A stretch of 14,492 nt of DNA. Source: Paramuribaculum sp. (GTDB lineage: Bacteria > Bacteroidota > Bacteroidia > Bacteroidales > Muribaculaceae). Where the stretch lies: NCBI GenBank assembly GCA_029051835.1, contig JAIDKJ010000064.1, positions 1 through 14,492 on the forward strand, read 5' to 3'. Both the position numbers and the translations under genes were made by a program. A model generated the notes under the pieces. It saw only the letters and a list, made by a program, of their open reading frames with translations. It was not told where the DNA came from and did no database searches. Below, piece after piece: positions 1 to 14,492 of this stretch; position 1 is the first letter of the stretch, and each line of letters begins with the position of its first letter.

Positions 1-1371
1 ATGGGCAATCTCGACGCCCCCGAGGAACCGCGCGACTTCCCGCCCGTCTACGGATCGGCCAAGCAGGGCTGGATGAGCGACGACTGGCAGGCGCCCACCG
101 ACAACATCACTCCGGTGCTCGACGCCATAATCAAATATATACCCGCACCCACCACTATCGAAGGCCCGGCGCAGATGCTCGTCACCTCGCTCGACTTTTC
201 GAGCTATGTGGGCCGCATAGCCATAGGCCGTGTGCACCGCGGCGAGTTCCGCGAAGGAATGCCCATAGCGCTCTGCAAGAAGGACGGTTCCGTCATCAAG
301 CAGCGCATCAAGGAGCTGCACGTGTTTGAAGGAATGGGACGCAAGAAGGTGCAGAGCGTCAAGAGCGGCGACATCTGCGCCCTCGTAGGCATCGACGGAT
401 TCGAGATCGGCGACACTATAGCCGACGCCGAAACCCCCGAAGCGCTCCCCCGCATAGCTATCGACGAGCCCACCATGTCGATGACATTCACCATCAACGA
501 CAGCCCGTTCTTCGGCCGCGACGGCAAGTTTGTCACCTCGCGCCATATCGGCGACCGTCTGACCAAAGAGCTTGACCGCAACCTGGCACTCCGCGTCAAG
601 AAAGCCGACCATGAGGATGTGTGGACCGTATTCGGCCGCGGCGTGCTCCATCTGTCGGTGCTCATCGAAACGATGCGCCGCGAAGGCTACGAGCTTCAGG
701 TAGGCCAGCCGCAGGTCATCGTCAAGGAGATCGACGGAAGGAAATGCGAGCCGGTGGAGCTGCTCACCATCAACGTACCCGAGGAATACTCTTCGAAGAT
801 GATCGACATGGTCACCCGCCGCAAGGGCGAACTGGTGTCCATGTCCACTCAGAACGACCGCATACACCTCGAATTCAACATCCCCTCGCGAGGCATCATC
901 GGCCTGCGCAACAACGTGCTGACAGCCTCGGCCGGCGAAGCCATCATGGCTCACCGCTTCCTCGAATACCAGCCCTGGAAAGGCGACATCGAGCGCCGCA
1001 CCAACGGATCGCTCATAGCCATGGAAGCCGGCACGGCCTACGCCTACGCCATCGACAAGCTTCAGGATCGCGGACGCTTCTTCATCTTCCCGCAGGAGGA
1101 GGTCTACGCCGGTCAGGTCGTAGGCGAGAACGCCAAGGACAACGACATTGTGGTCAACGTCACCAAGTCAAAGAAGCTCACCAACATGCGCGCATCGGGA
1201 GCCGACGACAAAGCCCGCATCGTGCCCCCCGTGGTGTTCAGCCTTGAAGAAGCGCTCGAATACATCAAGGAGGACGAATATGTGGAGGTGACCCCCAACC
1301 ATATACGTCTGCGCAAGATACTCCTCGACGAGATCGAGCGCAAGCGAGCCGCATCAAGAGCCAATTCCTGA
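1..1371 (+). CDS. typA: Ribosome-associated GTPase BipA/TypA, 5'-truncated by the contig start
   Basis: C-terminal 456 residues of BipA (TypA), a translational GTPase of the EF-G/LepA family that binds 70S ribosomes and aids ribosome assembly and stress adaptation. The family is about 600 residues long. The N-terminal GTPase domain, with its P-loop and switch regions, lies off the contig, so the ATG at base 1 is an internal methionine. Visible are the EF-Tu-like beta-barrel (about residues 55-140, SSYVGRIAIGRVHRG), the EF-G domain III-like part (about 155-235, GKFVTSRHI and SVLIETMRREGYEL), the EF-G C-terminal fold (about 245-330, PSRGIIGLR) and the BipA-specific C-terminal domain with KKLTNMRASG and EEALEYIKEDEYVEVTP. 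These blocks match the family from E. coli to Bacteroides as I remember it. The stop is TGA. The sigma-54 activator follows after 22 bp on the same strand. Very sure of identity. Confidence 0.97.
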   Translation: MGNLDAPEEPRDFPPVYGSAKQGWMSDDWQAPTDNITPVLDAIIKYIPAPTTIEGPAQMLVTSLDFSSYVGRIAIGRVHRGEFREGMPIALCKKDGSVIKQRIKELHVFEGMGRKKVQSVKSGDICALVGIDGFEIGDTIADAETPEALPRIAIDEPTMSMTFTINDSPFFGRDGKFVTSRHIGDRLTKELDRNLALRVKKADHEDVWTVFGRGVLHLSVLIETMRREGYELQVGQPQVIVKEIDGRKCEPVELLTINVPEEYSSKMIDMVTRRKGELVSMSTQNDRIHLEFNIPSRGIIGLRNNVLTASAGEAIMAHRFLEYQPWKGDIERRTNGSLIAMEAGTAYAYAIDKLQDRGRFFIFPQEEVYAGQVVGENAKDNDIVVNVTKSKKLTNMRASGADDKARIVPPVVFSLEEALEYIKEDEYVEVTPNHIRLRKILLDEIERKRAASRANS

Positions 1372-1393
1372 ACCATACCGACACTCACCCGAC

Positions 1394-2632
1394 GTGAAAA
1401 TATCCATGCCCCCCGAAATACCCGCCGAAGTGCAGCAGGCCAAGATGAGATTCGGCATCATAGGCAACGCTCCGGCGCTGACGGCCGCCATAAGCCGCGC
1501 AGTGCAGGTGGCGCCTATCGACCTGTCGGTGCTCGTCACCGGCGAGAGCGGATCGGGCAAGGAGTTCTTCCCGAAGATCATACACGCCTTCAGCGCGCGC
1601 AAACACGCGCGCTACATAGCCGTCAACTGCGGCGCCATACCCGAAGGCACCATCGACTCCGAACTGTTCGGACACGAAAAAGGAGCCTTCACCGGAGCCA
1701 TCGGTTCGCGCAAGGGCTACTTTGAGGAAGCCGACGGAGGCACGATATTTCTCGACGAGGTGGCCGAACTCCCGCTCACCACTCAGGCGCGCCTGCTGCG
1801 TGTGCTCGAAAGCGGCGAGTTCATCAAAGTAGGCTCGTCGACCGTACAGAAGACCAATATCCGCGTGGTGGCAGCCACCAACGTCGACATGCTCAAGGCC
1901 GTCGAGGAGGGACGCTTCCGCGAGGATCTCTACTACCGCCTCTCGACAGTCAACATCGCAGTGCCGCCGCTGCGCGAGCGTGGCAACGATATAATGCTGC
2001 TGGCGCGCAAATTCGCGTCGGACTTCGGCGAACGCTACCGTATGCCGGCCGTCACCTTCTCCGACGAAGCGCGCGCGCTGATGACGCACTATCGCTGGCC
2101 GGGCAATGTCCGCCAGCTCAAAAACGTCGTGGAGCAGACTGCGCTATTCGATGCCGGACGCGAAGTGACAGCCTCCGACATAGAGCAGTATCTGCCGTCG
2201 GGCGGCTCGGTCTACACCCCCGTGCTGGCTTCGTCGCCGTCGCACACCTACGAGCGCGAACGCGAAGCGATCTTCAACATGATATTCCGTATGCAGAAGG
2301 AGATCGACGCGCTCCGCGCCGAAATCGAGAAGCGCCCCGCGGCAACGCAGCCTATCGCCACCCCCGCTTCGGAGGTGCTGGATCTCCCACCACTGTCGCT
2401 CGTCCACTATCACCCGGTGCAGCGCACAAGCGCCGTGGAGGATATAACAGCCGACGAAATCACCACCTCCGCCACCATCCCGCAACAGTCGCTCACGCTT
2501 GAGGACACCGAGCGCGAAACAATCAGGCGCTCGCTCGAAAACAACGGCGGACGACGCAAGGCCACAGCCCGGGAGCTTAACATCTCGGAGCGCACACTCT
2601 ACCGCAAAATCAAGGAATACGGACTGGAATGA
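1394..2632 (+). CDS. Sigma-54-dependent transcriptional activator without a receiver domain
   Basis: A 412-residue bacterial enhancer-binding protein that should hydrolyse ATP to remodel sigma-54 RNA polymerase at its target promoters. The AAA+ domain fills about residues 20-265: Walker A GESGSGKE at 50-57, the sigma-54 contact loop GAFTGA at 97-102, Walker B GTIFLDEV at 116-123, FREDLYYRL at 175-183 and the sensor II motif WPGNVRQL at 235-242. A charged, probably coiled-coil stretch follows (about 285-313), then a low-complexity linker and a Fis-type helix-turn-helix at 372-410 (RKATARELNISERTLYRKIK). There is no N-terminal receiver, GAF or PAS domain, so the signal it answers to cannot be read from the sequence. 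I took the GTG at 1394; the ATG at 1406 is an equally plausible start four codons in. It lies 22 bp after typA and converges with the exonuclease gene. Family assignment is firm; targets are unknown. Confidence 0.95.
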   Translation: MKISMPPEIPAEVQQAKMRFGIIGNAPALTAAISRAVQVAPIDLSVLVTGESGSGKEFFPKIIHAFSARKHARYIAVNCGAIPEGTIDSELFGHEKGAFTGAIGSRKGYFEEADGGTIFLDEVAELPLTTQARLLRVLESGEFIKVGSSTVQKTNIRVVAATNVDMLKAVEEGRFREDLYYRLSTVNIAVPPLRERGNDIMLLARKFASDFGERYRMPAVTFSDEARALMTHYRWPGNVRQLKNVVEQTALFDAGREVTASDIEQYLPSGGSVYTPVLASSPSHTYEREREAIFNMIFRMQKEIDALRAEIEKRPAATQPIATPASEVLDLPPLSLVHYHPVQRTSAVEDITADEITTSATIPQQSLTLEDTERETIRRSLENNGGRRKATARELNISERTLYRKIKEYGLE

Positions 2633-2645
2633 CCGTCGACGTCCG

Positions 2646-3149
2646 TCACAGCAGCGTCATGGCTATCTTGGCACACGCCTCGGCGTCGGCAAGCGCGTTG
2701 TGATGATTGTCAAACGGTATGCCTAAGAAATCGGCCAGCGACGGCAGGCTGAACGACGCGCACAGTGTGCGCGGTATGGTTCGTCGCGCACGTTCGAGAG
2801 TGCAATAAAAGTCATAATCGGGATAATCTATGCCATAACAGCGGCACACCGCACGCAGACACCCTTCGTCAAAACGTTTGTTATGGGCCACGAGTGGCCT
2901 GCTGCCTATGAAGTCGCGCAGCTCAGGCCACACCGCCCAAAAACCGGGAGCATCCTCCGTATCCGCCGGGCCGATGCCGTGGACACATTCCGTAAACCGG
3001 CGCAGATAGTAGTCAGGCTCAGGTTTTACCAGCCGGTAGAAACGACCGGTGACAGCGCCGCCCTCCACCTTCACAGCGCCTATCGCGCAGATGCTCGTCG
3101 GCTCGGCATTGGCCGTTTCGAAATCGATGGCCACAAAATCCGTCATCAT
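2646..3149 (-). CDS. DEDDh-family 3'-5' exonuclease (DNA polymerase III epsilon-like)
   Basis: A small stand-alone 3'-5' exonuclease of about 167 residues, in the RNase T/DnaQ superfamily. All DEDDh motifs are visible: Exo I AIDFETAN (D9, E11), Exo II AHNKRFDEG (N90, D94) and Exo III HNALADA (H150, D155). The protein has the exonuclease domain and little else, so a proofreading, repair or RNA-trimming role cannot be told apart. The reading frame is open up to 3251, but the added 34 residues lie antiframe within ispH and are basic and unlike the family. The start is therefore ATG at 3149, giving an ATGA overlap with the ispH stop, or the next ATG at 3146, giving TGATG. Either suggests translational coupling to ispH. 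It is the last gene of the porQ-cmk-ispH operon and converges with the sigma-54 activator across 13 bp. Confidence 0.9.
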   Translation of the reverse strand: MMTDFVAIDFETANAEPTSICAIGAVKVEGGAVTGRFYRLVKPEPDYYLRRFTECVHGIGPADTEDAPGFWAVWPELRDFIGSRPLVAHNKRFDEGCLRAVCRCYGIDYPDYDFYCTLERARRTIPRTLCASFSLPSLADFLGIPFDNHHNALADAEACAKIAMTLL

Positions 3150-4015
3150 CCGCCGGCAAGCTCCTGCACCCGGTCGCGCACCTGCTCCATCAGCCATCGC
3201 GGCGTGGAGGTGGCTCCGCACACGCCTATGGTGGAAGCATCGTGGAGCCATGACTCCTCAACGGCATCCGGACCGCTTACGAGATAAGTACGGCTGTTCA
3301 CTTCGCGGCATTCGCCGCACAGCACTCTTCCGTTGGAACTTTTGGCACCGCTCACGAAGAGCACCACATCGTGGGCGGCCGCAAAACGTCGCAGACCCTC
3401 CACACGGCCGGCCACCTGACGGCATATCGTGTCGAAATGCCTGAAACTGACTCCGGGAGCCTTGCGGCGCTCGATCTCGTCGACCATGTGGCGAAGACCT
3501 TCGGGCGACTTCGTGGTCTGCGAGTACAGCGCCACCGGGCGGTTGAAATCCACCGACTCAAGCCCCGACTCATCCTCTACGACGATGGCTTCGCCACGCG
3601 TCTGGCCCACGAGTCCGTTCACCTCGGCATGGCCGTTCTTGCCGTAGATCACTATCTGCGGACGGTCGGCATCGGTTTCGTAGGCCTGCTTCACACGGCT
3701 TTGCAGCCTCAGCACCACCGGACAAGTGGCGTCGATGATCTCTATATCGTTGCGGCGCGCCAGCTCGTAAGTGGCGGGAGGCTCGCCGTGGGCGCGCAAC
3801 AACACCTTGACACCATGCAGCGCGGCCATATCCTCATGGGTGATAGTTACCAGCCCGCGTCTGCGCAGGCGCTCCACCTCCGCACTGTTGTGGACTATAT
3901 CGCCAAGACAATAGAGCCGTCCCTCGCGGTCGAGCACCTCCTCGGCCTTGCGGATGGCTGTCACGACTCCGAAACAGAATCCGGAGTCCTGATCGATCTC
4001 TACGGTCGGTTTCAT
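3146..4015 (-). CDS. ispH: 4-hydroxy-3-methylbut-2-enyl diphosphate reductase (IspH/LytB)
   Basis: Last enzyme of the methylerythritol phosphate pathway. It reduces HMBPP to IPP and DMAPP using a [4Fe-4S] cluster in the cytosol. The three cluster cysteines are present: C14 in GFCFGV, C98 in DATCP and C198 in DTIC. So are the substrate-binding histidines H42 (VHN), H76 (RAHG) and H129, the proton-relay glutamate E131 (HAEVNG), the threonine pair in SQTTKS (167-168), SSN (226-228) and the GATSTP block near the C-terminus. At 289 residues it is shorter than the E. coli enzyme (316), because the C-terminal extension is absent; this looks like a natural form. Its ATG overlaps the cmk stop as ATGA, and its own stop overlaps the exonuclease start the same way. 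Its products feed prenyl synthases such as the one encoded at 11813-12781. Confidence 0.98.
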   Translation of the reverse strand: MKPTVEIDQDSGFCFGVVTAIRKAEEVLDREGRLYCLGDIVHNSAEVERLRRRGLVTITHEDMAALHGVKVLLRAHGEPPATYELARRNDIEIIDATCPVVLRLQSRVKQAYETDADRPQIVIYGKNGHAEVNGLVGQTRGEAIVVEDESGLESVDFNRPVALYSQTTKSPEGLRHMVDEIERRKAPGVSFRHFDTICRQVAGRVEGLRRFAAAHDVVLFVSGAKSSNGRVLCGECREVNSRTYLVSGPDAVEESWLHDASTIGVCGATSTPRWLMEQVRDRVQELAGG

Positions 4016-4701
4016 CGCGTGCGTTCGTTGAATATTTCGAGAAGCAGAGCATCCTGCTCATCGATAGTCATATCCGAATTGTCGAGCGTCACAGCGTCGG
4101 CCGCTTTGCGCAACGGACTTTCGGCGCGTGTCTCATCGATATGGTCGCGCTCGCGCAGATTGGCCAGCACCTCGTCGTAGCTTGCCTCCATATTCTTGGC
4201 CTTAAGCTCGTCAAAACGCCTGCGGGCGCGGGTTTCGGCCGAAGCGGTGACAAACACCTTCATTTCGGCATCGGGGAACACGGTCGTACCTATATCACGG
4301 CCATCCATCACTATGCCCTTCTCGCGTCCCATCTGCTGCTGAATACCGGTCATGGCCCTGCGCACGGCCGCTACGGCTGCCACCGGCGACACAGCCTGCG
4401 ACACCGTCATCGAACGGATCTCGCTCTCCACATCCTCGCCGTTGAGCATCGTGCGCTGTCCGTCGGGCGTGACTTTGAAATCTATCGCTATGCCGGGAAG
4501 CGCCTCAGCCAGACGCACGTCGTCGACACGCCCCTCGGTGTCGGCCATACCGTGACGGAGAGCATAGAGCGCCACTGCGCGATACATCGCACCCGAATCG
4601 ATATAACGGTAGCCCGCCTGTCGGGCCAGCTTCTTCGCCATGGTGCTTTTGCCGGTCGACGAATATCCGTCGATAGCTATTATTATTTTCTTTTTTTCCA
4701 T
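4012..4701 (-). CDS. cmk: Cytidylate kinase
   Basis: CMP/dCMP kinase, 229 residues, the usual length. It transfers phosphate from ATP to CMP or dCMP in cytosolic pyrimidine nucleotide recycling. Visible are the P-loop GYSSTGKST (12-20), the nucleoside-binding YIDSGAMYRAVAL block (33-45), the MDGRDIGTTVFP signature (132-143) and the lid arginines in RARRRFDE and RERDHIDETR (about 158-192), ending with SPLRKA. The start ATG at 4701 is followed directly by a lysine run and a hydrophobic strand, as in the family. It lies 19 bp downstream of porQ with no visible promoter between, and overlaps ispH by ATGA, so it should share the porQ transcript. As I recall, the order porQ-cmk-ispH is found in other Bacteroidales, including Porphyromonas. 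Confidence 0.97.
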   Translation of the reverse strand: MEKKKIIIAIDGYSSTGKSTMAKKLARQAGYRYIDSGAMYRAVALYALRHGMADTEGRVDDVRLAEALPGIAIDFKVTPDGQRTMLNGEDVESEIRSMTVSQAVSPVAAVAAVRRAMTGIQQQMGREKGIVMDGRDIGTTVFPDAEMKVFVTASAETRARRRFDELKAKNMEASYDEVLANLRERDHIDETRAESPLRKAADAVTLDNSDMTIDEQDALLLEIFNERTR

Positions 4702-4720
4702 TTATGTTGAACGGTCAGAT

Positions 4721-5752
4721 TTATAAAAACCGGCCTATGTCAGCCGAGAAGTTAAGCATGAGTGTGGAAGCGCCGCGGTGGGGCATAGCGAAAGCCGCGT
4801 CGACACCGAAACCGCCTATATTCAGTCCGCCGCCGATTGAAAATCCGCTCAGCAGATTGCGCGAATACGTGGCCATATCGGTGCGGGTCTTGTAGTTGTA
4901 GCCTATCCCTATGTGAAAACGGCTGTCGGGCACCAGATCGGCCGCCAGCACAAGGTGTCGCATAAGATTCGAGCCGAACGAATCTTTAATCTCAGGAGCG
5001 GCGTCGGCAGCCCCGTCGCCATGCTCGTAATAGGGCAGGTTCCACTTGGTGAGATTCCATGCCGTGACCGAAAATCTCACCGGCAGTCCGGGAAACGACT
5101 GCGTCCATCCAAGACGCACATCCACCGGCAGACGGTCGTAGCGCTCGTTGAAGCGCTTCACCTGTCCGCCAAGATTTGTCACCACAGCCGACAGCCACAG
5201 CTCCCGGTCAGGGGCATAGTAATTAATGCAGAGATCCACACCCACAGCCATAGCCGTATAGGAATCATACGACGAATACACCCATCGGAGTGTGGCGCCG
5301 CCACGCAGACGCTCGGTTATGTCGCGCGAATATGTGGCTCCGACCGACAGATCGAGCGGAGAGAATGTGCCCGAAGCCACCCCCTCGATATCAGTGCGGT
5401 CCATACTCCCGTAGCCGAAATATTTCAGGGCCACGCCCCATGCGCTGCGCTCGCCCGCGCCATTGCCGAAAACGGCCGAAGCGAAGTTCGACGAACTCAT
5501 ATAGCGCATGTAGCCCACCGACAGGGTCTTGCTGTATTCCGGGCCCAGAAACGCCGGATTCTGGTCGACGGCCGCCACGCCCGCGTCGACCGCGCTCACA
5601 TTGACACCGCCGAGGCCTAATATGCGGCTCGAAGAGGTGATGTCGAGAAAAGAGTAGGCCGGCGAGGAATCACCGCCCGGCCCGTCGGCTATGGCGGCGA
5701 TCGGAAGCATGGCGGTGACAGCGGTTGCGACCTGTCGGAGGAATCTACGCAT
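4721..5752 (-). CDS. porQ: PorQ-family outer-membrane beta-barrel protein
   Basis: A 343-residue exported protein with an N-terminal signal peptide (hydrophobic 8-22, probable cleavage after IAAIA). It then shows a long series of alternating amphipathic strands rich in Gly, Tyr and aromatics, typical of an outer-membrane barrel, ending in a phenylalanine-leucine pair. The opening block YSFLDITSSSRILGLGGVNV followed by DQNPAFLGPE (64-73) is the PorQ/PorV-like signature. In Porphyromonas gingivalis PorQ belongs to the type IX secretion attachment complex with PorU, PorV and PorZ. In many Bacteroidales lacking the full system the homologue is kept with unknown role. No other type IX component is in this window, so a secretion role here is only a possibility. 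It is first in the porQ-cmk-ispH-exonuclease operon, with a Bacteroidota-type promoter 70-100 bases upstream. Confidence 0.85.
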   Translation of the reverse strand: MRRFLRQVATAVTAMLPIAAIADGPGGDSSPAYSFLDITSSSRILGLGGVNVSAVDAGVAAVDQNPAFLGPEYSKTLSVGYMRYMSSSNFASAVFGNGAGERSAWGVALKYFGYGSMDRTDIEGVASGTFSPLDLSVGATYSRDITERLRGGATLRWVYSSYDSYTAMAVGVDLCINYYAPDRELWLSAVVTNLGGQVKRFNERYDRLPVDVRLGWTQSFPGLPVRFSVTAWNLTKWNLPYYEHGDGAADAAPEIKDSFGSNLMRHLVLAADLVPDSRFHIGIGYNYKTRTDMATYSRNLLSGFSIGGGLNIGGFGVDAAFAMPHRGASTLMLNFSADIGRFL

Positions 5753-5821
5753 AAGAAATTCTACTTGCTTGTATGTAAGCCATGTAAACTGTGCTACAAC
5801 TTACCGTGACCTACCTGAGAT

Positions 5822-5854
5822 GCAAAATTAGTCAAAAAGCACGTATGCCGGAAA
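5822..5854 (-). promoter_or_regulatory. Promoter of the porQ-cmk-ispH-exonuclease operon
   Basis: Read on the minus strand, a perfect -7 box TAATTTTGC lies at 5830-5822. A TTTC at 5854-5851 sits 20 bases upstream of it and matches 3 of 4 bases of the -33 TTTG. This is the primary sigma-factor promoter pattern of Bacteroidota. It would leave a leader of about 60-70 nt before the porQ ATG at 5752. Assignment is by pattern only; no start-site data. Confidence 0.65.
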
Positions 5855-5915
5855 TTATCCCCCTACTTAAAAAATCCAAAACAAAAACAATCTTTCCCAA
5901 AAACTCATCCGCCCC

Positions 5916-5948
5916 CTTGTATATTCCCGACAAGTATCATATTTTTGC
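5916..5948 (+). promoter_or_regulatory. Promoter of the TonB-domain gene, with an inverted repeat in the spacer
   Basis: CTTG at 5916-5919 (3 of 4 to TTTG), a 20-base spacer, then a perfect TAnnTTTGC (TATTTTTGC) at 5940-5948, leaving a leader of about 65-70 nt to the ATG at 6021. CTTGT at 5916-5920 and ACAAG at 5930-5934 form a 5-bp inverted repeat that overlaps the -33 and lies in the spacer. It could be an operator or chance. Confidence 0.65.
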
Positions 5949-6020
5949 ACCGCAACAGGCGTCACAGCCAACTATACCAGAATACCAACGAAGCCCTACG
6001 GGCCACCCCTTAATTCACTG

Positions 6021-6461
6021 ATGTACCGACTCAAACCCATCATTACCACTTTCTTGCTCACGCTGACATTCTACGCCAGCGCGCAGCAGCGCATGGTCGT
6101 CACCTATCGCACGGTCAGCGCCGACAACCGCCCTCTCGACATAGAGGCATTCCTGTTTGAGTCGGTCGACGAACAGCCACACTTTCCCGGAGGCGACGGA
6201 GCCATGATGAAGTTCATCAACCGCGAGCGACAATACCCGGCGCAGGCCTACCGTCAGGGCATCGAGGGGCGCGTGCTGTGCAGCTTCGTGGTGAAACCCG
6301 ACGGCACCATCACCGCCCCCGAAGTAGTGCGCGGAGTGGAAGAGAGCCTCAACAAGGAGGCTCTGCGCATCATCAGCCGCATGCCGCGATGGGTGGCCGG
6401 AAAGATAGGCGACACTAAAGTACCCGTCTACTGCATCATAGCCATACCGTTCAGGCGCTGA
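6021..6461 (+). CDS. Small exported protein with TonB C-terminal domain
   Basis: A 146-residue protein with a cleavable-looking signal peptide (MYRLKPIITTFLLTLTFYASA, cleavage near residue 21, before QQ) followed by a TonB C-terminal fold at about 51-146. The signature runs PHFPGGDGAMMKF, then YPAQAYRQGIEGRV, VKPDGTI and VVRGVEESLNKEALRI, ending with MPRW and a final strand, as in Bacteroidetes TonB_C domains (PF03544). It lacks the proline-rich spanning segment of a classical TonB, and its one hydrophobic segment looks cleavable rather than an anchor, so it is probably periplasmic. A role in energising TonB-dependent receptors is uncertain; such single-domain proteins are common in Bacteroidales and mostly uncharacterised. 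It stands alone on the plus strand behind its own promoter and converges with the gene ending at 6474. Confidence 0.85.
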   Translation: MYRLKPIITTFLLTLTFYASAQQRMVVTYRTVSADNRPLDIEAFLFESVDEQPHFPGGDGAMMKFINRERQYPAQAYRQGIEGRVLCSFVVKPDGTITAPEVVRGVEESLNKEALRIISRMPRWVAGKIGDTKVPVYCIIAIPFRR

Positions 6462-6473
6462 CCATCCGACGGG

Positions 6474-6788
6474 TCACCCTTCATGCGCCTTAGGCATAAA
6501 CGCACACCCCACATTCCACGCCAAAGCCCCTGTCAGCAACGTCATCATACCTATCGACATCAGATCGCCGACAGTCACCACCGGCGCATTGACAAGGTCG
6601 ATGCCGTAAAACACCGCCAGCACCAGAGTCACTACCAGCCCGACACCGCATGCGACAGTTTCGATCCATCCGGCCCAAAAACGCTTCCTGTCAGGCAGGC
6701 GCGCCATCACTTTGCGCGTGAACCACGGCTCGGGAGGAGCCTGAGGCAGGCTCCGCTTCAAAAAATCGCCAAATTCCTTATCAGTCAT
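6474..6788 (-). CDS. Small two-helix membrane protein downstream of an ECF sigma factor, candidate anti-sigma factor
   Basis: A 104-residue protein. It has a soluble, charged N-terminus (about 1-40) with the phrase PPEPWFTRKVMARLPDRKR, then two predicted membrane helices (about 42-62 and 75-96) and a short tail. I do not recognise a characterised family. Similar short proteins with a PWFTRKVMNRLP-like motif sit directly after sigma-70-family genes in Bacteroides, as far as I remember. Position and topology (cytoplasmic N-terminal region tethered to the inner membrane) suggest an anti-sigma role, but there is no zinc-binding HxxxCxxC motif, so this is inference. It begins 75 bp after the sigma factor stop with no convincing promoter in the gap, so probably shares the transcript. 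It converges with the TonB-domain gene, with 12 bp between stops. Confidence 0.75.
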   Translation of the reverse strand: MTDKEFGDFLKRSLPQAPPEPWFTRKVMARLPDRKRFWAGWIETVACGVGLVVTLVLAVFYGIDLVNAPVVTVGDLMSIGMMTLLTGALAWNVGCAFMPKAHEG

Positions 6789-6863
6789 ATTTCTGTATTC
6801 TTAATCAATCTATCAGTAAAACATTTCAGGCTATCTTTCGGCTCATACTACATCGCCTGACCA

Positions 6864-7400
6864 TCACCCACGATCTATCACGCTCGTCATCTTTTCGCGC
6901 GCACGCTTCAGATAGACCTTCACAGTACCCTCAGGCATGCCTGTGATCCCGGCTATCTCCTTGATACTGCGATCCTCCATATAGAAGAGCAGCACCAGAC
7001 TGCGCTCAGCCGGATTTAAGGCGCGCATCGCCGTGGCCACATCCATCGACGCTTCCGAAGCTCTCTGTCCGGCATCGGATACATCGCCGCCGAAAGGCTC
7101 CGCTTCCATGCCGGTCATCTCCCGGCGGCTGCGCAGGTAGCTGTAATATTGATTACAGGCTATCCGGTAGAGCCACGTGCGAAACCCCGACAGGCCTTTG
7201 AACGACCTCACCGCCTCGTAAGCTTTCAGAAACGTATCCTGAGCCAGATCATCGGTCAGACACGCGTCGCCCCCGGTGAGGTTGTAGAGAAACCGCCTCA
7301 GCGGCTCCTCATACTCCTCCACCAGACGCCCGAAAGCATTGCGGCTGTCGGTCGTGGCACACAGTGCCAGCAACTTGATTTCCTCAAAGCGTGTCAGCAT
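6864..7400 (-). CDS. ECF-type sigma-70 family RNA polymerase sigma factor
   Basis: A 178-residue alternative sigma factor. Region 2 occupies about residues 24-92, with the core-binding and -10-recognition segment TDDLAQDTFLKAYEAVRSFKG and FRTWLYRIACNQYYSYLRSRR. Region 4 occupies about 122-172 and has LNPAERSLVLLFYMEDRSIKEIAGITGMPEGTVKVYLKRAREKM, a canonical helix-turn-helix. Region 3 is absent, as expected for ECF sigma factors. The frame stays open to 7511, but the extra N-terminal residues lie inside the upstream gene and are unlike the family, so ATG 7400 is chosen. That start lies 17 bp inside the 3' end of the DUF6249-like gene, which points to translational coupling. It is flanked by membrane proteins on both sides in the same operon, which suggests control by an envelope or membrane signal. 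Target promoters are unknown. Confidence 0.93.
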   Translation of the reverse strand: MLTRFEEIKLLALCATTDSRNAFGRLVEEYEEPLRRFLYNLTGGDACLTDDLAQDTFLKAYEAVRSFKGLSGFRTWLYRIACNQYYSYLRSRREMTGMEAEPFGGDVSDAGQRASEASMDVATAMRALNPAERSLVLLFYMEDRSIKEIAGITGMPEGTVKVYLKRAREKMTSVIDRG

Positions 7401-8142
7401 TGTTGTCGTATCCGCCGAAATCGTTGGTACGGTTAGCGCCGGCAGCGTTGCTGTCCTTCGGAATATCAGGTATCTTCGGCAGATTGCGCGAATTGAAATA
7501 AAACTCGGCATAGTAGGTTATCAGCTTGGCCAGACCGACGACTACCGGCAACAGCGACAGACATGCTACTTCTTTGGCATCGACCGTCATGAAGAAAATG
7601 AACCCCACTATGCCCACACCGGTCCATATCAGGCCATTGTTCATACGGCGCGAATCGATGCGGTAGACACGACTGCCACGCGCCACCGACTCAATCATCT
7701 CCGAAGTACGGTTGAACAGACCATTGTTGTAGAACGCATCGGGAAGCGGATTTCCTTTCTCGATCGCATACTCTATCAGCTTATACTTGGCCAGCAGATT
7801 ATTGCGGCGGTAATGGAGCAGCATCCACACCAGACCGAGAACGAACACGAACGGCAGGAACACGGCTATCATCTTGCTCACCTCACGGAAACCGTCGACT
7901 CTCGACCGCGGAGCGCCGATCTCCACGCTCGGACTGATATAGATAGGCGTAGAGCCTATCGAATCAAAAGCCAGAGTGGTCTGTAGTTCGTCGCGTATCT
8001 GCTCCGTCAGCTCCACGCGCATTTCCTGACGCATAGCCTCGAAATCAGCACGGTTGTCGCTCTCGCATGAACTCATCAAGGCAGTGCCGCCGACCATCAG
8101 TGCCGTAAGTGCCATTGCACACAAATTGCGTAATTTTTTCAT
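7384..8142 (-). CDS. DUF6249-like membrane protein, first gene of the sigma-factor operon
   Basis: A 252-residue membrane protein. It has an N-terminal hydrophobic signal with a lipobox-like MSSC at residues 23-26, then a short, charged, probably helical periplasmic segment (about 30-57). Three membrane helices follow (about 91-111, 171-187 and 193-212). The cytosolic-looking loop after the first carries YAIEKGNPLPDAFY, the kind of motif seen in Bacteroidetes DUF6249 proteins. The C-terminal tail is polar and rich in Asn, Asp and Gly. Biochemical function is unknown. Its coupling with an ECF sigma factor, whose start lies inside its 3' end, suggests it senses or modulates the signal controlling that sigma factor; this is inference. 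The lipobox is imperfect (Met at -3), so lipidation is uncertain. The DUF label rests on remembered resemblance. Confidence 0.8.
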   Translation of the reverse strand: MKKLRNLCAMALTALMVGGTALMSSCESDNRADFEAMRQEMRVELTEQIRDELQTTLAFDSIGSTPIYISPSVEIGAPRSRVDGFREVSKMIAVFLPFVFVLGLVWMLLHYRRNNLLAKYKLIEYAIEKGNPLPDAFYNNGLFNRTSEMIESVARGSRVYRIDSRRMNNGLIWTGVGIVGFIFFMTVDAKEVACLSLLPVVVGLAKLITYYAEFYFNSRNLPKIPDIPKDSNAAGANRTNDFGGYDNNADTL

Positions 8143-8174
8143 ATCTGTAGAATCTTGTTTTTTTGATTAATCTG

Positions 8175-8204
8175 ACCTTTAGACGCGGCAGCCGCGAAAA
8201 AGGT
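8175..8204. promoter_or_regulatory. Nested palindrome in the leader of the sigma-factor operon
   Basis: Outer arms ACCTTT (8175-8180) and AAAGGT (8199-8204) enclose inner arms CGCGGC (8184-8189) and GCCGCG (8191-8196) around a single central base, with 3-base and 2-base internal loops. It lies 33 bases upstream of the ATG at 8142 and just downstream of the predicted -7 box, so it would fold as a GC-rich hairpin in the leader RNA, or act as a protein site in DNA. No U-tract follows on either strand, so it is not a standard terminator. Confidence 0.5.
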
Positions 8205-8215
8205 TACATCCCGCC

Positions 8216-8224
8216 GCAAATTTA
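8216..8224 (-). promoter_or_regulatory. Predicted -7 box for the DUF6249-like/sigma operon
   Basis: On the minus strand the sequence reads TAAATTTGC, a perfect TAnnTTTGC, about 75 bases upstream of the first ATG of the operon (8142). I see no good TTTG 19-21 bases further upstream, so either the -33 is weak or another sigma factor, possibly the operon's own, helps drive it. Confidence 0.45.
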
Positions 8225-8265
8225 CCTCAATTTCCCCCAAATCACTTAAAATTACTTGTAATAGA

Positions 8266-8973
8266 CTACTCCCAAAGCAAGAATTCATCCAGTAATACCT
8301 GATAAGATGCCGACTGCAACAAACTCATTAAATACCCATAATTATCACATATATCAATATCAACCCCACTCGCTGCCGCTCTCCAATATTTCAGTCCTTC
8401 ACTGACGTCAACAAAGTCAGATGCATACATACATGCCTGAGATAATAATGAGTATCTTTCGATGTTTTCATCGTCATCTGCAACCGGCAAGTCTTCTTCG
8501 GTTATCTCGCATGGAAATTCAACAGAAGGATCTGCTCCTCGCTGCAATAGTTGACGCACCCTCTGAAGATCAAAATTTTCGCCCGCCACACATAGATCCA
8601 TATCAATTTCCCTATAGCCAAGCTTTATCAGTAACTCTTTCTCGGTAAATACTGCATCCTCTATACTGTCATAGTGTGCGCAAAAAGTCTTGGCATATTC
8701 CATAAAACCAAGATTTTTGTCGTCCGGAACCCTGATTATTGTTTCATAGAAGGCCAAGAGAGTTTTACATCGGTCAGCAACAGCAGAAATCACAGGGAGC
8801 AGTTCTTTTTTCCATCCGTTTGAATTGAGAATCATTAAGTTGGCATAAGACATCCAATACAACTCTGTCACAAAGTCGCAATCACATGGCAGCGATCCCA
8901 CACTATGATTTTCATGGAAATAATTGATGACGCTTTCAATTCTAAACAAAATCGCTTCTTTATAAATATACAT
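8266..8973 (-). CDS. Orphan protein with ankyrin-like repeat, function unknown
   Basis: A 235-residue, probably soluble, acidic and mostly helical protein with no signal peptide. An ankyrin-type helix pair is visible at about 124-150 (DMDLCVAGENFDLQRVRQLLQRGADPSVEF). A weaker second unit may lie at about 175-212 (LLSQACMY, then WRAAASGVDIDICDNYG). The N-terminal 110 residues are not recognised. The gene is clearly AT-richer than the flanking housekeeping genes, and its codon use differs, both signs of horizontal acquisition. Proteins of this type are sometimes immunity proteins of polymorphic toxin systems or cargo of integrated elements, but no toxin gene is beside it, so I assign no function. 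A possible promoter lies about 90 bases upstream (9061-9094). The ATG at 8973 is the first start in the frame. Confidence 0.75.
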   Translation of the reverse strand: MYIYKEAILFRIESVINYFHENHSVGSLPCDCDFVTELYWMSYANLMILNSNGWKKELLPVISAVADRCKTLLAFYETIIRVPDDKNLGFMEYAKTFCAHYDSIEDAVFTEKELLIKLGYREIDMDLCVAGENFDLQRVRQLLQRGADPSVEFPCEITEEDLPVADDDENIERYSLLSQACMYASDFVDVSEGLKYWRAAASGVDIDICDNYGYLMSLLQSASYQVLLDEFLLWE

Positions 8974-9060
8974 ATTTCATTAATCATTACCGTAAACACC
9001 TCTACACAATAAGCCCATAGCGTTTCAGGCAATTACATATTATTCCTGATTTCTAACCGA

Positions 9061-9094
9061 CAAAATTATACCTACAGTCGAAGCACACGACAAA
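9061..9094 (-). promoter_or_regulatory. Possible promoter of the ankyrin-like gene
   Basis: Minus strand: TTTG at 9094-9091, a 22-base spacer and TAATTTTG at 9068-9061. The boxes match well but the spacer is one to two bases longer than usual. The leader to the ATG at 8973 would be about 85 nt. The surrounding stretch 8974-9177 is AT-rich and I see no other gene in it. Confidence 0.4.
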
Positions 9095-9177
9095 ACACCT
9101 ATAGACAAAACGTTTCGAATGAGAATTTTAACGCAAAACAACGATAACGATATATCTACAACTGAAGAAATCTGTCT

Positions 9178-9426
9178 TTATTTCCACAGTTTTTTGTCAA
9201 AACGGTAGAGTGTCAAGACTTGCTCAAAAGTTGTACCATCCTTCAGTACCAACTCACTCTTGGGACTTTTATAGAATGGGTAGATGTATGCAGACAGACG
9301 ATGATAGCCAATGTTCATCAGATAATCCTCCAATCTATGCTCATCTTTCATAAGCATACCACGTGATTTGAGTATTTGAACGATTTGTTCAGGAGAGGAA
9401 TATGGCTTGGAGAAACTTGCTTTCAT
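9178..9426 (-). pseudogene. Truncated Abi_2-family (AbiD/AbiF-like) abortive-infection gene
   Basis: Encodes only 82 residues, matching the N-terminal part of Abi_2 proteins (PF07751), which are normally around 300 residues. The family pattern is plain: FSKPYSSPEQIVQILKSRGM, then DYLMNIGYHRLSAYIYPFY, then DGTTFEQVLTLYRFDKKL, after which it runs into a stop (WK, TAA) exactly where the conserved helical core should begin. I could not find the rest in any minus-strand frame between 8974 and 9177, so the C-terminal two thirds appear deleted. The frame is open to 9525, but the promoter boxes at 9494-9526 cover that region, so ATG 9426 is the start. Family members with known activity abort phage infection in lactococci. 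This copy is probably inactive, though a short product could still be made. Confidence 0.75.
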
Positions 9427-9493
9427 GGATGTATGATAAAAAAACGACCCGCCGATTTGAGCATTGTAAAGAGGCTTGGCAGGTTCTAATGAC

Positions 9494-9526
9494 GCAAAGG
9501 TAGTAAATTTATATGGATTAGCCAAA
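9494..9526 (-). promoter_or_regulatory. Near-ideal promoter of the truncated Abi gene
   Basis: On the minus strand, TTTG at 9526-9523, a 20-base spacer and TACCTTTGC at 9502-9494 match the Bacteroidota consensus in full. Transcription would begin near 9487, leaving a leader of about 60 nt to ATG 9426. This rules out the longer reading from 9525. Confidence 0.7.
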
Positions 9527-9537
9527 TAAATCGAGAT

Positions 9538-9559
9538 GCGACTTCTCCGCGACTTCTCC
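9538..9559. repeat. Perfect 11-bp tandem duplication
   Basis: GCGACTTCTCC occurs twice head to tail at 9538-9548 and 9549-9559, just upstream of the Abi promoter and at the edge of the AT-rich patch. It may be a replication-slippage product or a scar left at the boundary of an acquired segment. No longer repeat was seen around it. The rest of 9560-9620 shows no gene. Confidence 0.7.
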
Positions 9560-9622
9560 GAGCGTAAAAAATCTAATAAATTGTTGACTCTACTCCAATC
9601 CTACAGATCGGTAGCCTGCAGG

Positions 9623-9655
9623 TTTGCAAAAGCGGGGAATTATGGCGAACTTTGC
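9623..9655 (+). promoter_or_regulatory. Promoter of the beta-hexosaminidase gene
   Basis: TTTG at 9623-9626, a 20-base spacer and GAACTTTGC at 9647-9655, matching TAnnTTTGC except for the first base. It would start transcription about 20 bases before the ATG at 9681. The leader shows no strong Shine-Dalgarno sequence. Confidence 0.6.
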
Positions 9656-9680
9656 GGGAGATTAAACCAGTCAGCAGTCC

Positions 9681-11267
9681 ATGAAAAAGATTTTTACTTG
9701 TATAGCGTTGTCGCTCATGACAGTGCTGCCGATGGCGGCACAGCAGGCATTGCTCCCCACTCCGGCCAGAATGCAGGCCGGACGTGGCGCATTCACCATC
9801 ACTTCCGGAGTCAGAATCATCACCGACGGCGGATATGCCGACACTCTTGCCGCACGACTCTCTGAGGATCTGAAGGAGTTCGGCTATGGATCATCAGTAA
9901 AGCAAGAAGACGCCAAAGGCGTCGTCAGCCTGCGGCTCGACAAGAGCCTCGCGATGCCGGAGGAGGCATATACGCTCCGCGTAACCACCGACAGTATCAT
10001 AATGCAGGCGTCGTCGGAGGCCGGACTGTTCTATGCCGCACAATCAATGATGCAGCTTGCCACACAAGGCAACGGCACCGTCGGCACATGCCGTATCGAC
10101 GACAGCCCGCGCTTCGGGTGGCGCGGATTCATGCTCGACGAGAGCCGCCATTTCTTCGGCAAAGAGAAGGTAAAGCAGTATCTCGACATCATGGCATCGC
10201 TGCGCCTCAACGTGTTCCACTGGCATCTGACCGACGAGCCGGGCTGGCGCATCGAGATAAAGCGTTATCCGCTGCTGACAGAGCAGGGAGCCATTGGCAA
10301 CTGGCACGATCCGGAAGCACCGGCCACATTCTACACTCAGGACGATATCCGCGAGATAGTGGCATACGCGGCCGAGCGTCACATAACGGTCGTGCCTGAA
10401 TTCGACATGCCGGGCCACGCCACCGCCGTTTGCCGGGCCTACCCTGAGGTTTCGGGCGGCGGCGAGGGCAAATGGAAGCATTTCACCTTCCATCCGTGCA
10501 AAGAGGCGACGTTCGAATTCATCAGCTATGTGCTCGACGAGATCGTCGCACTGTTTCCCGCGCCCTACATCCACATCGGAGGCGACGAGGTGCATTACGG
10601 CAACCAGAGCTGGTTTACCGACCCGGAGATACAGCAGTTCATCAAAGACAACGATCTTGGCGACGAGAAAGGGCTTGAACAGTATTTCATACGCCGCGCG
10701 GCCGACATAGTCGCATCGAAAGGCAAGACAGCCATAGGATGGGACGAGATCGTCGACGCCGGAGTAGCGCCCGAAAAGGCCGTCATCATGTGGTGGCGCC
10801 ACGACCGCCCCGCCCAGCTTGAAAAAGCGCTTGAAAAAGGCTACCGGGTGATCATGACACCGCGCCGCCCGCTCTACGCCGACTTCATACAGCACGCATC
10901 GCACAAGACCGGACGCGTATGGAACGGATTCAACCCCATCGAGGACATCTACAGCTTCCCCGAACCGCTCGGACACCTCACACAAGGCCATGACGGCAAC
11001 GTGCTCGGAATGCAGTTCTCGCTCTGGACCGAACGGGTGGCCGACACCCGCCGGCTCGACTTCATGACCTTCCCCCGCCTGATAGCAGTGGCCGAATCGG
11101 CATGGACTCCCGCCGCTGCCAAAGACAAGGAGAACTTCATGCAGCGTCTGCCCCTCACTCTGGAAACACTCCGAAGCAAGGGCATATACTATTTCAACCC
11201 CTTCGATCCGGAATCGACACCCGAACCGGGAGCGCCCGACAAAGACGACGTGCTCAAAAACGGATAA
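9681..11267 (+). CDS. Secreted beta-N-acetylhexosaminidase, glycoside hydrolase family 20
   Basis: A 528-residue exo-acting hexosaminidase that removes terminal GlcNAc or GalNAc from glycans such as mucin or chitin oligosaccharides. The signal peptide is clear (MKKIFTCIALSLMTVLPMAAQ, cleavage near 20-21). An N-terminal GH20b-like alpha/beta domain covers about 24-140, and the catalytic TIM barrel about 145-490. Visible active-site elements: RGFMLDESRHF (148-158), FHWHLTDEPGW (179-189), PEFDMPGHA (239-247), the catalytic Asp-Glu pair D302-E303 in HIGGDEVHYG, the tryptophans in MWWRHD and the late SLWTER block. The mechanism in this family uses substrate-assisted oxazolinium formation, with the Asp positioning the acetamido group and the Glu acting as acid/base. 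There is no C-terminal carbohydrate-binding module and no lipobox, so it is probably periplasmic. No susC/susD genes are beside it. Confidence 0.96.
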   Translation: MKKIFTCIALSLMTVLPMAAQQALLPTPARMQAGRGAFTITSGVRIITDGGYADTLAARLSEDLKEFGYGSSVKQEDAKGVVSLRLDKSLAMPEEAYTLRVTTDSIIMQASSEAGLFYAAQSMMQLATQGNGTVGTCRIDDSPRFGWRGFMLDESRHFFGKEKVKQYLDIMASLRLNVFHWHLTDEPGWRIEIKRYPLLTEQGAIGNWHDPEAPATFYTQDDIREIVAYAAERHITVVPEFDMPGHATAVCRAYPEVSGGGEGKWKHFTFHPCKEATFEFISYVLDEIVALFPAPYIHIGGDEVHYGNQSWFTDPEIQQFIKDNDLGDEKGLEQYFIRRAADIVASKGKTAIGWDEIVDAGVAPEKAVIMWWRHDRPAQLEKALEKGYRVIMTPRRPLYADFIQHASHKTGRVWNGFNPIEDIYSFPEPLGHLTQGHDGNVLGMQFSLWTERVADTRRLDFMTFPRLIAVAESAWTPAAAKDKENFMQRLPLTLETLRSKGIYYFNPFDPESTPEPGAPDKDDVLKNG

Positions 11268-11297
11268 AACCGCTATGGCATCGTCGCGTCATTGCGC

Positions 11298-11317
11298 TAC
11301 GAATTTCGTAACTTTGC
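11298..11317 (+). promoter_or_regulatory. -7 box with overlapping palindrome ahead of the lipoprotein gene
   Basis: A perfect TAnnTTTGC (TAACTTTGC) lies at 11309-11317, only three bases before the ATG at 11321. A palindrome with 6-bp arms, TACGAA and TTCGTA around one T (11298-11310), overlaps its first two bases. No TTTG is found at the proper distance upstream. If this box is used, the transcript would have almost no leader. It may instead support the downstream ATG at 11345. Confidence 0.45.
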
Positions 11318-11320
11318 AGC

Positions 11321-11782
11321 ATGAAAATCCAACTTCACATCATCATGCTGTCGGCCATACTCGCCGGATGCTCGTCGACACCGTCGATCGACCCGTCGCG
11401 ACCGGCCGACCAGCAGGCTCTACGGCTGGCCGAAGCAGGCCCGACCGAAGCAGCCGAAGCACTCGTAGGATGGCTCCGGCAGGCATCTCCGGCCGACCGC
11501 GACTACGCCCGCAGTCTGACCCGAGAGTTAATGTCGATCTACGACAGCGACTCTCTGGGCCGCACACGCTGTTTCGTCCGCTCGCTCGACTCCATCAGAT
11601 CGACCCTTGATCCGGAAGAACTGGCCCACGTCTACGTCGTATCGACCAAGCCGTGGCGGCTCGGAGCGATAATGCGTGCCGACGGAGCCGACGACCGACT
11701 TCTGCAGGCCATCGAAGCCGATTACGCCGACGATCCGGAAGCGCTCGAAGCGTTCAGACACGGATATCGCGGCGAACACTGA
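11321..11782 (+). CDS. Small putative lipoprotein, function unknown
   Basis: A 153-residue protein with a type II signal peptide. A short hydrophobic segment ends in the lipobox LAGC, making C17 the lipidated cysteine, followed by SSTPSID. The mature part is rich in Ala, Asp, Glu and Arg and looks wholly helical. A repeated pattern of Ala-Glu and Leu (ALRLAEAGPTEAAEALVGWLRQA) suggests short helical hairpins. I recognise no named domain. Its position just before the prenyl synthase and TatD genes, with a 30-bp gap, suggests co-transcription, but its role is open. The ATG at 11321 is chosen because it gives a basic residue before the hydrophobic segment. The ATG at 11345 would leave only eight residues before the cysteine, too few for a signal. 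Confidence 0.8.
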   Translation: MKIQLHIIMLSAILAGCSSTPSIDPSRPADQQALRLAEAGPTEAAEALVGWLRQASPADRDYARSLTRELMSIYDSDSLGRTRCFVRSLDSIRSTLDPEELAHVYVVSTKPWRLGAIMRADGADDRLLQAIEADYADDPEALEAFRHGYRGEH

Positions 11783-11812
11783 CCACCTCACTCAAACCAA
11801 CACATCATAACA

Positions 11813-12781
11813 ATGCTCGACATAGACAAATATATAGCTGCCGCCGAAGAAGCCGTCAGGCAGCTTGAGATACCCGCCACACCGTCCGGACTATATGATC
11901 CGATTCGCTACACGCTTCAGGCCGGAGGCAAACGGATACGCCCGGTGCTGACTCTCGCCGTGGCCGACGCTGTCGCGCCCGACGGACGCCGCCGCGCCGC
12001 CAACCAGGCCGCGGCCATAGAGATGTTCCACAACTTCACGCTGCTCCACGACGACGTCATGGACCGGGCCGATATGCGGCGCGGACGTCCTACGGTCCAT
12101 CGGCAGTGGAACGAAGCCACAGCGATCCTTTCAGGCGACGCCATGCTGACACTGGCCGGCGCTGCCATGATGAAGGGATGCGACGAAGCGCAGCTGCGCC
12201 CGGTCATGGAACTGTTCAACCGCACCGCCATGGAGATCTACGAAGGACAGCAGCACGACATGGATTTCGAGAGCCGCACCGACGTGACCATCGGTGAATA
12301 CATGGAGATGATACGGCTGAAGACCTCGGTGCTGCTCGGATGCGCCTGCGCGCTCGGAGCCATCATGGCCGGAGCCGACAGCGCCGTCACCGACGCCTTC
12401 TACGGCTATGGCGAAAGCCTCGGACTGGCCTTCCAGCTCCGCGACGACTATCTTGACACCTACGGCGATCCGGCCACATTCGGCAAACAGATAGGAGGCG
12501 ACATAGCCTGTGGCAAAAAGACATGGCTTCTGATCAACGCCCTCGCCGAAGACACCACCGGCACAGTCGCCGCAGAGATAAGCGATCCGTCGCCACGCGA
12601 AGAGAAGATAAATCGCGTCAGAGCCGTCTACGACAGCCTCGGACTGCCACAGCGATGCCTCGGACTGATACGACGCTACGCCGACGACGCCATAGTACGC
12701 CTCGCCACCGTCGGTCTGCAGCCTGAAGCTATGGACTTCTTCACCCGTCTGGCCATGCAGACAGTCGACCGTACGCGATGA
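11813..12781 (+). CDS. Polyprenyl (isoprenyl diphosphate) synthase, short-chain type
   Basis: A 322-residue trans-prenyltransferase that condenses IPP with allylic diphosphates in the cytosol. Conserved features: GGKRIRP at 38-44, the first Asp-rich motif DDVMDRADMRRG at 80-91, K170-T171, and the second Asp-rich motif QLRDDYLD at 208-215 with the following GGDIACGKKTW. The first motif is the short DDxxD form, and F75 sits five residues before it. In known enzymes an aromatic residue there limits chain length, so a C15-C20 product (farnesyl or geranylgeranyl diphosphate) is likelier than a long quinone side chain. This is inference from motif rules. The TatD gene begins within its stop (ATGA). 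Substrate supply would come from IspH at 3146-4015. Confidence 0.93.
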   Translation: MLDIDKYIAAAEEAVRQLEIPATPSGLYDPIRYTLQAGGKRIRPVLTLAVADAVAPDGRRRAANQAAAIEMFHNFTLLHDDVMDRADMRRGRPTVHRQWNEATAILSGDAMLTLAGAAMMKGCDEAQLRPVMELFNRTAMEIYEGQQHDMDFESRTDVTIGEYMEMIRLKTSVLLGCACALGAIMAGADSAVTDAFYGYGESLGLAFQLRDDYLDTYGDPATFGKQIGGDIACGKKTWLLINALAEDTTGTVAAEISDPSPREEKINRVRAVYDSLGLPQRCLGLIRRYADDAIVRLATVGLQPEAMDFFTRLAMQTVDRTR

Positions 12782-13587
12782 CCGGACTGATCGACACCCA
12801 CACCCATCTATATCTGCCCGAATTCGCAGATGACGAGAGCTGCGACGGCGCTCCCGACGCAGTAGACCGCGCCGTCAGCGCCGGAGTAGGCCTTCTCATA
12901 TTCCCCAACGTAGACCTCACCACCATACAGCCGATGAAACGGCTTGCAGCCCGACACCCCTCGCATGTGTCGATGGCAATGGGACTGCACCCGACAGAGG
13001 TGGCCGACGACTGGAAGGAGGCGTTGCAGACCATCCACGCCGAACTGCAGTCGGGCATCTATATCGCCGTAGGAGAAGTAGGGATCGACCTATACTGGGA
13101 CGCATCGCGCCGGCAGCAGCAGATGGAGGCGTTCGACGCGCAACTGGACATGGCCCGACAACTCGGCCTGCCGGTGATAATCCACTGCCGCAACGCACTC
13201 GACGAAACTCTGGAAGTGCTGCAGGGACATCCATCGGTAGCCGCCGTCATGCACAGCTTCGGCGGAACGGCCGACGACGTCAGCCGCATACTCAAGACCG
13301 GCCCGTATTATTTCGGAATAAACGGCATACTGACTTTCAAGAAGTCGACACTCCCCGATGCCGTGGCGGCAATCCCGCCCGAACGCCTGCTGCTCGAAAC
13401 CGATGCGCCATACCTCGCCCCGGTGCCGATGCGCGGCCGCCGCAACGAAAGCGCCTATCTGACTCACACCGCCTCGCGTCTGGCCGAAACGCTCGGCATG
13501 GACGGTCAGGCAGTGGCCACACTGACGTCGGACAACGCACGTCGCCTGTTTGCCATAGCCGACCATAACGACCGCATCGACAGCTGA
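12778..13587 (+). CDS. TatD-family metal-dependent hydrolase (DNase)
   Basis: A 269-residue TIM-barrel amidohydrolase-superfamily protein. Members are metal-dependent 3'-5' nucleases acting in DNA repair and quality control; some remove D-aminoacyl groups from tRNA. The metal ligands are in place: DTHTHLY (H8, H10), E100 in GEVGID, H136 in IIHCR, H159 in MHSFGG and D209 in LLETDAPYLAP. The length is normal (about 260). Its ATG lies within the TGA stop of the prenyl synthase gene, as ATGA, so the two are very likely translationally coupled. A hairpin terminator begins 22 bases after its stop and closes the cluster. The family is certain; the in vivo substrate is not. Confidence 0.95.
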   Translation: MTGLIDTHTHLYLPEFADDESCDGAPDAVDRAVSAGVGLLIFPNVDLTTIQPMKRLAARHPSHVSMAMGLHPTEVADDWKEALQTIHAELQSGIYIAVGEVGIDLYWDASRRQQQMEAFDAQLDMARQLGLPVIIHCRNALDETLEVLQGHPSVAAVMHSFGGTADDVSRILKTGPYYFGINGILTFKKSTLPDAVAAIPPERLLLETDAPYLAPVPMRGRRNESAYLTHTASRLAETLGMDGQAVATLTSDNARRLFAIADHNDRIDS

Positions 13588-13608
13588 CCGACATAGACCG
13601 GCAACAGA

Positions 13609-13652
13609 CGAGCCGCGCCATGACACAAGGGTCACGACGCGGCTCGCTTTTT
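13609..13652 (+). terminator. Intrinsic terminator after tatD
   Basis: Perfect 9-bp arms CGAGCCGCG (13609-13617) and CGCGGCTCG (13638-13646) are followed by C and TTTTT (13648-13652). The 20-base loop contains a second short stem, TGAC (13621-13624) with GTCA (13631-13634), so the hairpin may extend inward. The T-tract is on the plus strand only, so it mainly serves the lipoprotein-prenyl synthase-tatD transcript, although the hairpin also lies just past the nqrF stop. Confidence 0.8.
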
Positions 13653-13670
13653 ATCTGCCTGAAGAGGCGG

Positions 13671-14438
13671 TCAGCCTCCGAAATTGTCGTAATGGATATT
13701 TTCCGGTTCCACTCCGAGCGAATCCAGCATCTTGTTGACAGCCGCGCTCATCGGGCCCGGTCCGCACATATAATACTCGATATCCTCGGGATTCTCATGA
13801 TTCTTGAGATAGGTGTCGTAGATCACCTGATGCACGAATCCGGGCGTATATTTCACTCCGGCCGCATCTGCTGCCGGATCGGGACGGTCGAGTGCCAGAT
13901 GGAAATGGAAGTTGGGGAACTCCTTTTCGATCTGCAGGAAATCGTCGAGATAGAACACCTCATTGAGCGCACGCGCCCCATAGAAGAAATTCATCACACG
14001 GTCGGTGGTGTGCAGTGTGCGGGTCATGTGCATGATCTGCGCGCGAAGCGGAGCCATGCCCGCGCCGCCGCCTATCCACATCATCTCCTTGCCTGAATCG
14101 AATATAGGATGGAAATCGCCGTAGGGGCCGCTCATGCGCACCTTGTCGCCCGGCTTGAGAGTAAAGATATAGCTTGAGGCTATGCCGGGCATCACATCCT
14201 GAAATCCCACCTCGGGCTTCGGCTTGAAGGGGGGCGTGGCTATGCGCACGGTAAGCATTATGCGGTCACCCTCGGCCGGATAGTTGGCCATTGAGTAGGC
14301 GCGCACAGTGGTTTCGGTGTTGCGGCATTTGAGTGCGAACAGCCCGAACTTCTCCCATGCCGGCAGATACTCCTCACCGATCAGCGATTTGTCGATGTCG
14401 CGGTCATAGTCTATCTCGTAGGGCGGTATCTTGATCAT
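13671..14438 (-). CDS. nqrF: Na+-translocating NADH:quinone reductase subunit F, N-terminus missing
   Basis: C-terminal 255 residues of NqrF, the electron-entry subunit of the Na+-NQR complex in the inner membrane. It takes electrons from NADH through FAD and a 2Fe-2S centre. Visible are the FAD motif RAYSMANYP (46-54), GPYGDF (104-109), the NADH-binding GGGAGMAPLR (123-132), YYMCGPGPM (222-230) and the family's terminal DNFGG. Full-length NqrF is a little over 400 residues; the N-terminal membrane helix and 2Fe-2S ferredoxin domain are missing because the contig ends. The frame can be read to an ATG at 14453, but those codons lie in adapter sequence and are artefactual. The end given, 14438, is the last codon before clear adapter and is an internal residue, not a true start. 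The other nqr genes should lie beyond the contig end. Confidence 0.95.
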   Translation of the reverse strand: MIKIPPYEIDYDRDIDKSLIGEEYLPAWEKFGLFALKCRNTETTVRAYSMANYPAEGDRIMLTVRIATPPFKPKPEVGFQDVMPGIASSYIFTLKPGDKVRMSGPYGDFHPIFDSGKEMMWIGGGAGMAPLRAQIMHMTRTLHTTDRVMNFFYGARALNEVFYLDDFLQIEKEFPNFHFHLALDRPDPAADAAGVKYTPGFVHQVIYDTYLKNHENPEDIEYYMCGPGPMSAAVNKMLDSLGVEPENIHYDNFGG

Positions 14439-14441
14439 GTA

Positions 14442-14492
14442 TCTTATACACATCTGACGCTGCCGACGATCTTACGCGTGTAGATCTCGGTG
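14442..14492. other. Illumina Nextera adapter contamination (not genomic)
   Basis: The last 51 bases are library adapter. 14442-14455 are the final 14 bases of the Tn5 mosaic end; the preceding five bases, 14437-14441, match it at three positions. 14456-14469 (GACGCTGCCGACGA) are the Nextera read-1-side linker in reverse complement. 14470-14477 (TCTTACGC) occupy the i5 index slot and are the reverse complement of GCGTAAGA, which I recall as index S517. 14478-14492 (GTGTAGATCTCGGTG) begin the reverse-complemented P5 arm. Element order and spacing are exactly those of read-through of a short insert. Confidence 0.97.

Follow-up and report, generated by a model that had tools for sequence, protein, structure and literature searches.

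The contig analysed here, a stretch of 14,492 nucleotides from Paramuribaculum sp. to which we refer at its full length as the window, ends in 56 bases that are almost certainly Nextera adapter read-through, probably from a short insert whose read escaped trimming, and that stand in place of the true continuation of the gene nqrF on another contig of the same genome (C84). All the sequence elements of a Nextera i5 read-through are present at this end, namely the mosaic end, the linker, an index from the kit list and the P5 arm, and the native sequence that they displace is found elsewhere in the assembly, on C84. The tail is an ordinary and already known artefact, and there is nothing biological or novel in it.

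Composition of the contig end

Compared with a template of mosaic end, i5 linker, eight unspecified bases and P5 arm, window positions 14437-14492 match Nextera i5 read-through at 46 of the 48 fixed positions and read, in order, ATGTATCTTATACACATCT, GACGCTGCCGACGA, TCTTACGC and GTGTAGATCTCGGTG. The features discussed in this and the following section are:

13671..14436, minus strand: 3' part of nqrF, genuine genomic sequence up to the start of the artefact
14372..14436, no strand assigned: exact overlap of 65 bases with C84, at that contig's end (C84:12007-12071)
14437..14455, plus strand: mosaic end of the Nextera adapter, 17 of 19 bases, with C>A at its positions 1 and 5
14456..14469, plus strand: transposase linker of the i5 side, 14 of 14 bases, directly after the mosaic end
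14470..14477, plus strand: i5 index slot, TCTTACGC, the reverse complement of GCGTAAGA (S517)
14478..14492, plus strand: start of the P5 arm in reverse complement, 15 of 15 bases, cut by the contig end

The only two mismatches of the mosaic end are thus both C>A, and the 50-base pattern that runs from CTTATACACATCT (mosaic-end base 7) onward is matched without error. At up to three mismatches, neither this 50-base pattern nor the 19-base mosaic end, of which the window holds one copy, occurred in any of 200 dinucleotide shuffles. The start of the tail is set independently at 14437, since identity with C84 ends at 14436. An earlier note on this DNA had placed the tail at exactly these coordinates, and the succession that it described, from mosaic end through linker and 8-base index to P5 arm, holds good over the 46 matching bases, while the two mosaic-end mismatches went unmentioned in it. 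The tail resembles the i5-side read-through of Nextera and Nextera XT libraries in all its parts, their order and their orientation, and differs from the i5 adapter of these kits in the two C>A changes and in the P5 arm, which is cut after 15 bases.

The displaced part of nqrF

Upstream of the tail, on the minus strand, lies the 3' part of nqrF, which encodes subunit F of the Na+-translocating NADH:quinone reductase (TIGR01941, E 9.4e-95, profile positions 167-405 of 405). The overlap with C84 is identical over its 65 bases and stops at the last base of that contig, whose end is also nqrF by profile (TIGR01941, E 1.7e-50, profile positions 67-177) and whose last 121 codons are open; the two contigs consequently carry adjoining parts of one gene. 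An 822-base query comprising the gene part and the tail was matched in 132 of 149 genomes (that of the window being one of them), although in a few of the 132 (G133 and G136, for example) the listed matches span the adapter part alone. From the stored loci of this DNA search, with the window's own left out, 24 relatives were compared on both strands over the 56 bases beyond the junction, and all 24 agree with C84 (39-52 of 56 bases) rather than with the tail (12-19 of 56), C84 and the tail themselves agreeing at only 13 of 56. This agreement of the relatives and C84 against the tail shows that the tail replaces native sequence. It has a consequence for the gene call: in the open reading frame list, the NqrF of the window begins with an ATG that lies within the mosaic end and reads MCIRYM-IKIPP where C84 has SYAQ-IKIPP, so that the false ATG supplied by the adapter (window 14437-14453) gives the protein six false N-terminal residues, MCIRYM.

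The nine proteins of positions 1-14436 that were scanned against Pfam are all ordinary: the NqrF part, TypA/BipA, a sigma-54 activator, LytB, cytidylate kinase, a sigma-70 factor, a GH20 hydrolase, a polyprenyl synthetase and TatD.

As to how the tail arose, a Nextera library fragment would have carried an insert shorter than the read, and the read would have run from nqrF into the mosaic end, the linker, the i5 index and the P5 arm; since the i5 side was reached, this would be read 2. Errors in the mosaic end may have let the read escape adapter trimming, and the assembler would then have taken it as the last extension of the contig, replacing the true continuation on C84. Such adapter at read ends is described for Nextera XT inserts shorter than the read in PMC3906532, which also gives, for the trimming of read 2, a 33-base mosaic end plus linker identical to that of the i5 template used here.

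Further adapter copies in the same genome

The window's copy is one of eight found in its genome with the core formed by the mosaic end and the i5 linker at up to three mismatches, and the corresponding i7 core has three copies, while the control, the pattern read backwards, gave none for either core. The earlier note had predicted that other contigs of the assembly would end likewise, and ten further copies are indeed located at contig ends or at 10-N gaps. In total, 8 of the 11 copies run out at contig ends, and the other three stand before a 10-N gap inside scaffolds (C477:3943-3969, C222:2322-2348 and C218:443-470; L048, L051 and L055, respectively). The bases before the adapter recur after the gap in C477 (10 bases) and in C222 (19 bases), not in C218; the gap-flanked copies are probably the product of scaffolding over read-through ends. 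A repeat around adapter and gap of this kind could pass for an insertion with target-site duplication. A search of the whole genome for the exact mosaic end returned no copy, compared with the 11 inexact ones, since errors had altered all the copies found. For longer stretches of P5 and of P7, searches at up to three mismatches likewise gave no match, which says little given that contig ends cut the copies short or that they are too degraded.

Errors in the mosaic end and probable escape from trimming

Each of the 11 copies in this genome has at least two mismatches in the 19 bases of the mosaic end, although perfect copies would have been found. The mismatch rate is 29 of 209 bases in the mosaic end against 5 of 157 in the linker (Fisher p 0.0004), and, as the core used for searching put no constraint on mosaic-end bases 1-6, the comparison was repeated with positions 7-19 only, where the difference persists (17 of 143 against 5 of 157, p 0.007). 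Read quality normally declines along a read, and errors that become fewer further on thus run in the wrong direction for plain quality decay. Other genomes of the family supplied 48 stored adapter rows, picked by similarity searches capping mismatches; in the 42 distinct copies among them, the mosaic end has no mismatch in 6, one in 2, two in 29, three in 4 and four in 1. The near absence of one-mismatch copies and the peak at two fit a trimmer that tolerates one mismatch, and we infer that most copies are reads that escaped such a trimmer. The six perfect mosaic ends come from G133, G102 and G311, and some assemblies were accordingly not trimmed in that way; counter to escape as a general rule, an intact CTGTCT stands ahead of the pattern in 79 of 82 matches in public contigs, these having been picked by the exact pattern. 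It is likely that in many assemblies the remaining adapter copies are those with at least two mosaic-end mismatches, the residue of a one-mismatch-tolerant trimmer, which an exact adapter screen misses. The description of the tail as untrimmed adapter assembled into the contig, given in the earlier note, is right as regards the adapter, while "untrimmed" should probably give way to "escaped trimming", in view of the errors in all 11 copies.

Occurrence in other genomes and public records

Of 397 genomes of the family, 64 carry the i5 core at up to two mismatches, counting that of the window; among the 222 with a completeness of 90% or more and a contamination of 5% or less, 21 do so. One genome of the family, G311, contains 93 copies of the core at this threshold and is apparently an untrimmed assembly. 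In public genome contigs, the exact 50-base pattern is found in at least 120 stretches, unrelated bacteria and archaea among them; the following details rest on 80 listed stretches, with 82 matches. Among these listed matches, 81 of 82 are no more than 208 bases away from where the stored stretch ends, and the 8-base index slot takes only seven values. In the exception (L109, LT827128.1, positions 11-60), the adapter stands at the very start of a chromosome record of 3.9 Mb and faces into it.

Sequences that resemble the tail (80-100% identity) are also present in 36 phage and 3 plasmid records, and in some of the records listed such adapter-like stretches lie under annotated genes such as tail fibre or portal protein. 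Phage examples under tail fibre or portal genes are MK170160.1 22595-22645 (100%), MK373775.1 149750-149804 (83.6%) and OY978796.1 145337-145392 (83.9%). Reports of adapter-laden public genomes are known.

Indexes and sample tracing

The i5 index is TCTTACGC in full in four of the eight i5 copies of the genome (C447, C61, C97 and C302); C477 and C222 show its first seven and first five bases, respectively, and then the gap, C473 is one base off, and C148 reads TCTTAACG, which fits TCTTACGC only with an indel. On the i7 side, C483 reads AGGCAGAA, C193 is one base off, and in C218 no more than AG precedes the gap. Allowing for errors, the indexes of all 11 copies fit one pair, TCTTACGC with AGGCAGAA, and are consistent with a single library. 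PMC7589761 tabulates the Nextera XT v2 indexes, with GCGTAAGA as S517 and AGGCAGAA as N703; the oligos given there have other linkers, and for this reason the index names alone are taken from it.

The earlier note had suggested that the index can help to trace the sample, an expectation that fares poorly for the i5 index alone. Another index, GCGATCTA, is present in records of the runs ERR712384 and ERR712388, in UBA10638 and in two Streptomyces isolates, and ATAGAGAG is common to records from several sources. The same few indexes recur in unrelated records, so that a sample is not identified by its i5 index alone. Within the family, TCTTACGC also stands at contig ends of other genomes (G133, G047 and G093, for example), which may have a study in common with the window's genome or only a kit.

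Alternative explanations

The mosaic end combines the outside and inside ends of Tn5, and the tail might be taken for a mobile element derived from this transposon. This derivation and the 17 matching bases out of 19 speak for a true insertion of a Tn5/IS50-like transposon end in nqrF. Such an insertion is extremely improbable: the tail matches only 14 of 19 bases of the outside end and 13 of 19 of the inside end, against 17 of 19 for the engineered mosaic end; no outside end was found in the genome at up to two mismatches; a synthetic linker, index and P5 arm come next; and the 24 relatives compared all run on like C84 at the junction, without insertion. A Tn5 outside or inside end is rejected on sequence, and the tail does not carry a natural end. 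The occurrence of the motif in 64 of the 397 family genomes might in turn be read as a real dispersed repeat of this bacterial family that ends in the motif. We regard this as vanishingly improbable, considering that the copies in the window's genome lie at contig ends (8 of 11) or beside 10-N gaps (3 of 11), that the motif is shared with unrelated bacteria and archaea and resembled in phage and plasmid records, and that its index slot has only seven values in the 82 public-contig matches listed. A family-specific repeat was rejected because of the position of the genome's copies and the presence of the adapter in unrelated organisms. The earlier note's statement that the tail is neither a transposon end nor a new repeat is thereby upheld, the poorer match to the Tn5 ends and the synthetic adapter after the mosaic end speaking for its first half and the same two observations on position and spread for its second.

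The three copies inside scaffolds (C477, C222 and C218) speak for a chimeric library molecule, in which two fragments are joined through adapter. All three, however, stop at a 10-N gap, two of them repeat the pre-adapter bases after it, and nothing follows the P5 arm in the window copy; chimeric ligation, which is not needed to explain the copies, is very improbable. Adapter read-through, assembled in place of the native continuation, remains the explanation that we adopt for the tail.

Implications

For the genome at hand, the harm done by the tail is a false start for NqrF and the displacement of its true continuation, in spite of the 65-base exact overlap of the two contigs. For the family, the presence of the adapter core in 64 of 397 genomes means that, at contig ends of such assemblies, the results of motif scans and gene calling should go through an adapter search that tolerates mismatches.
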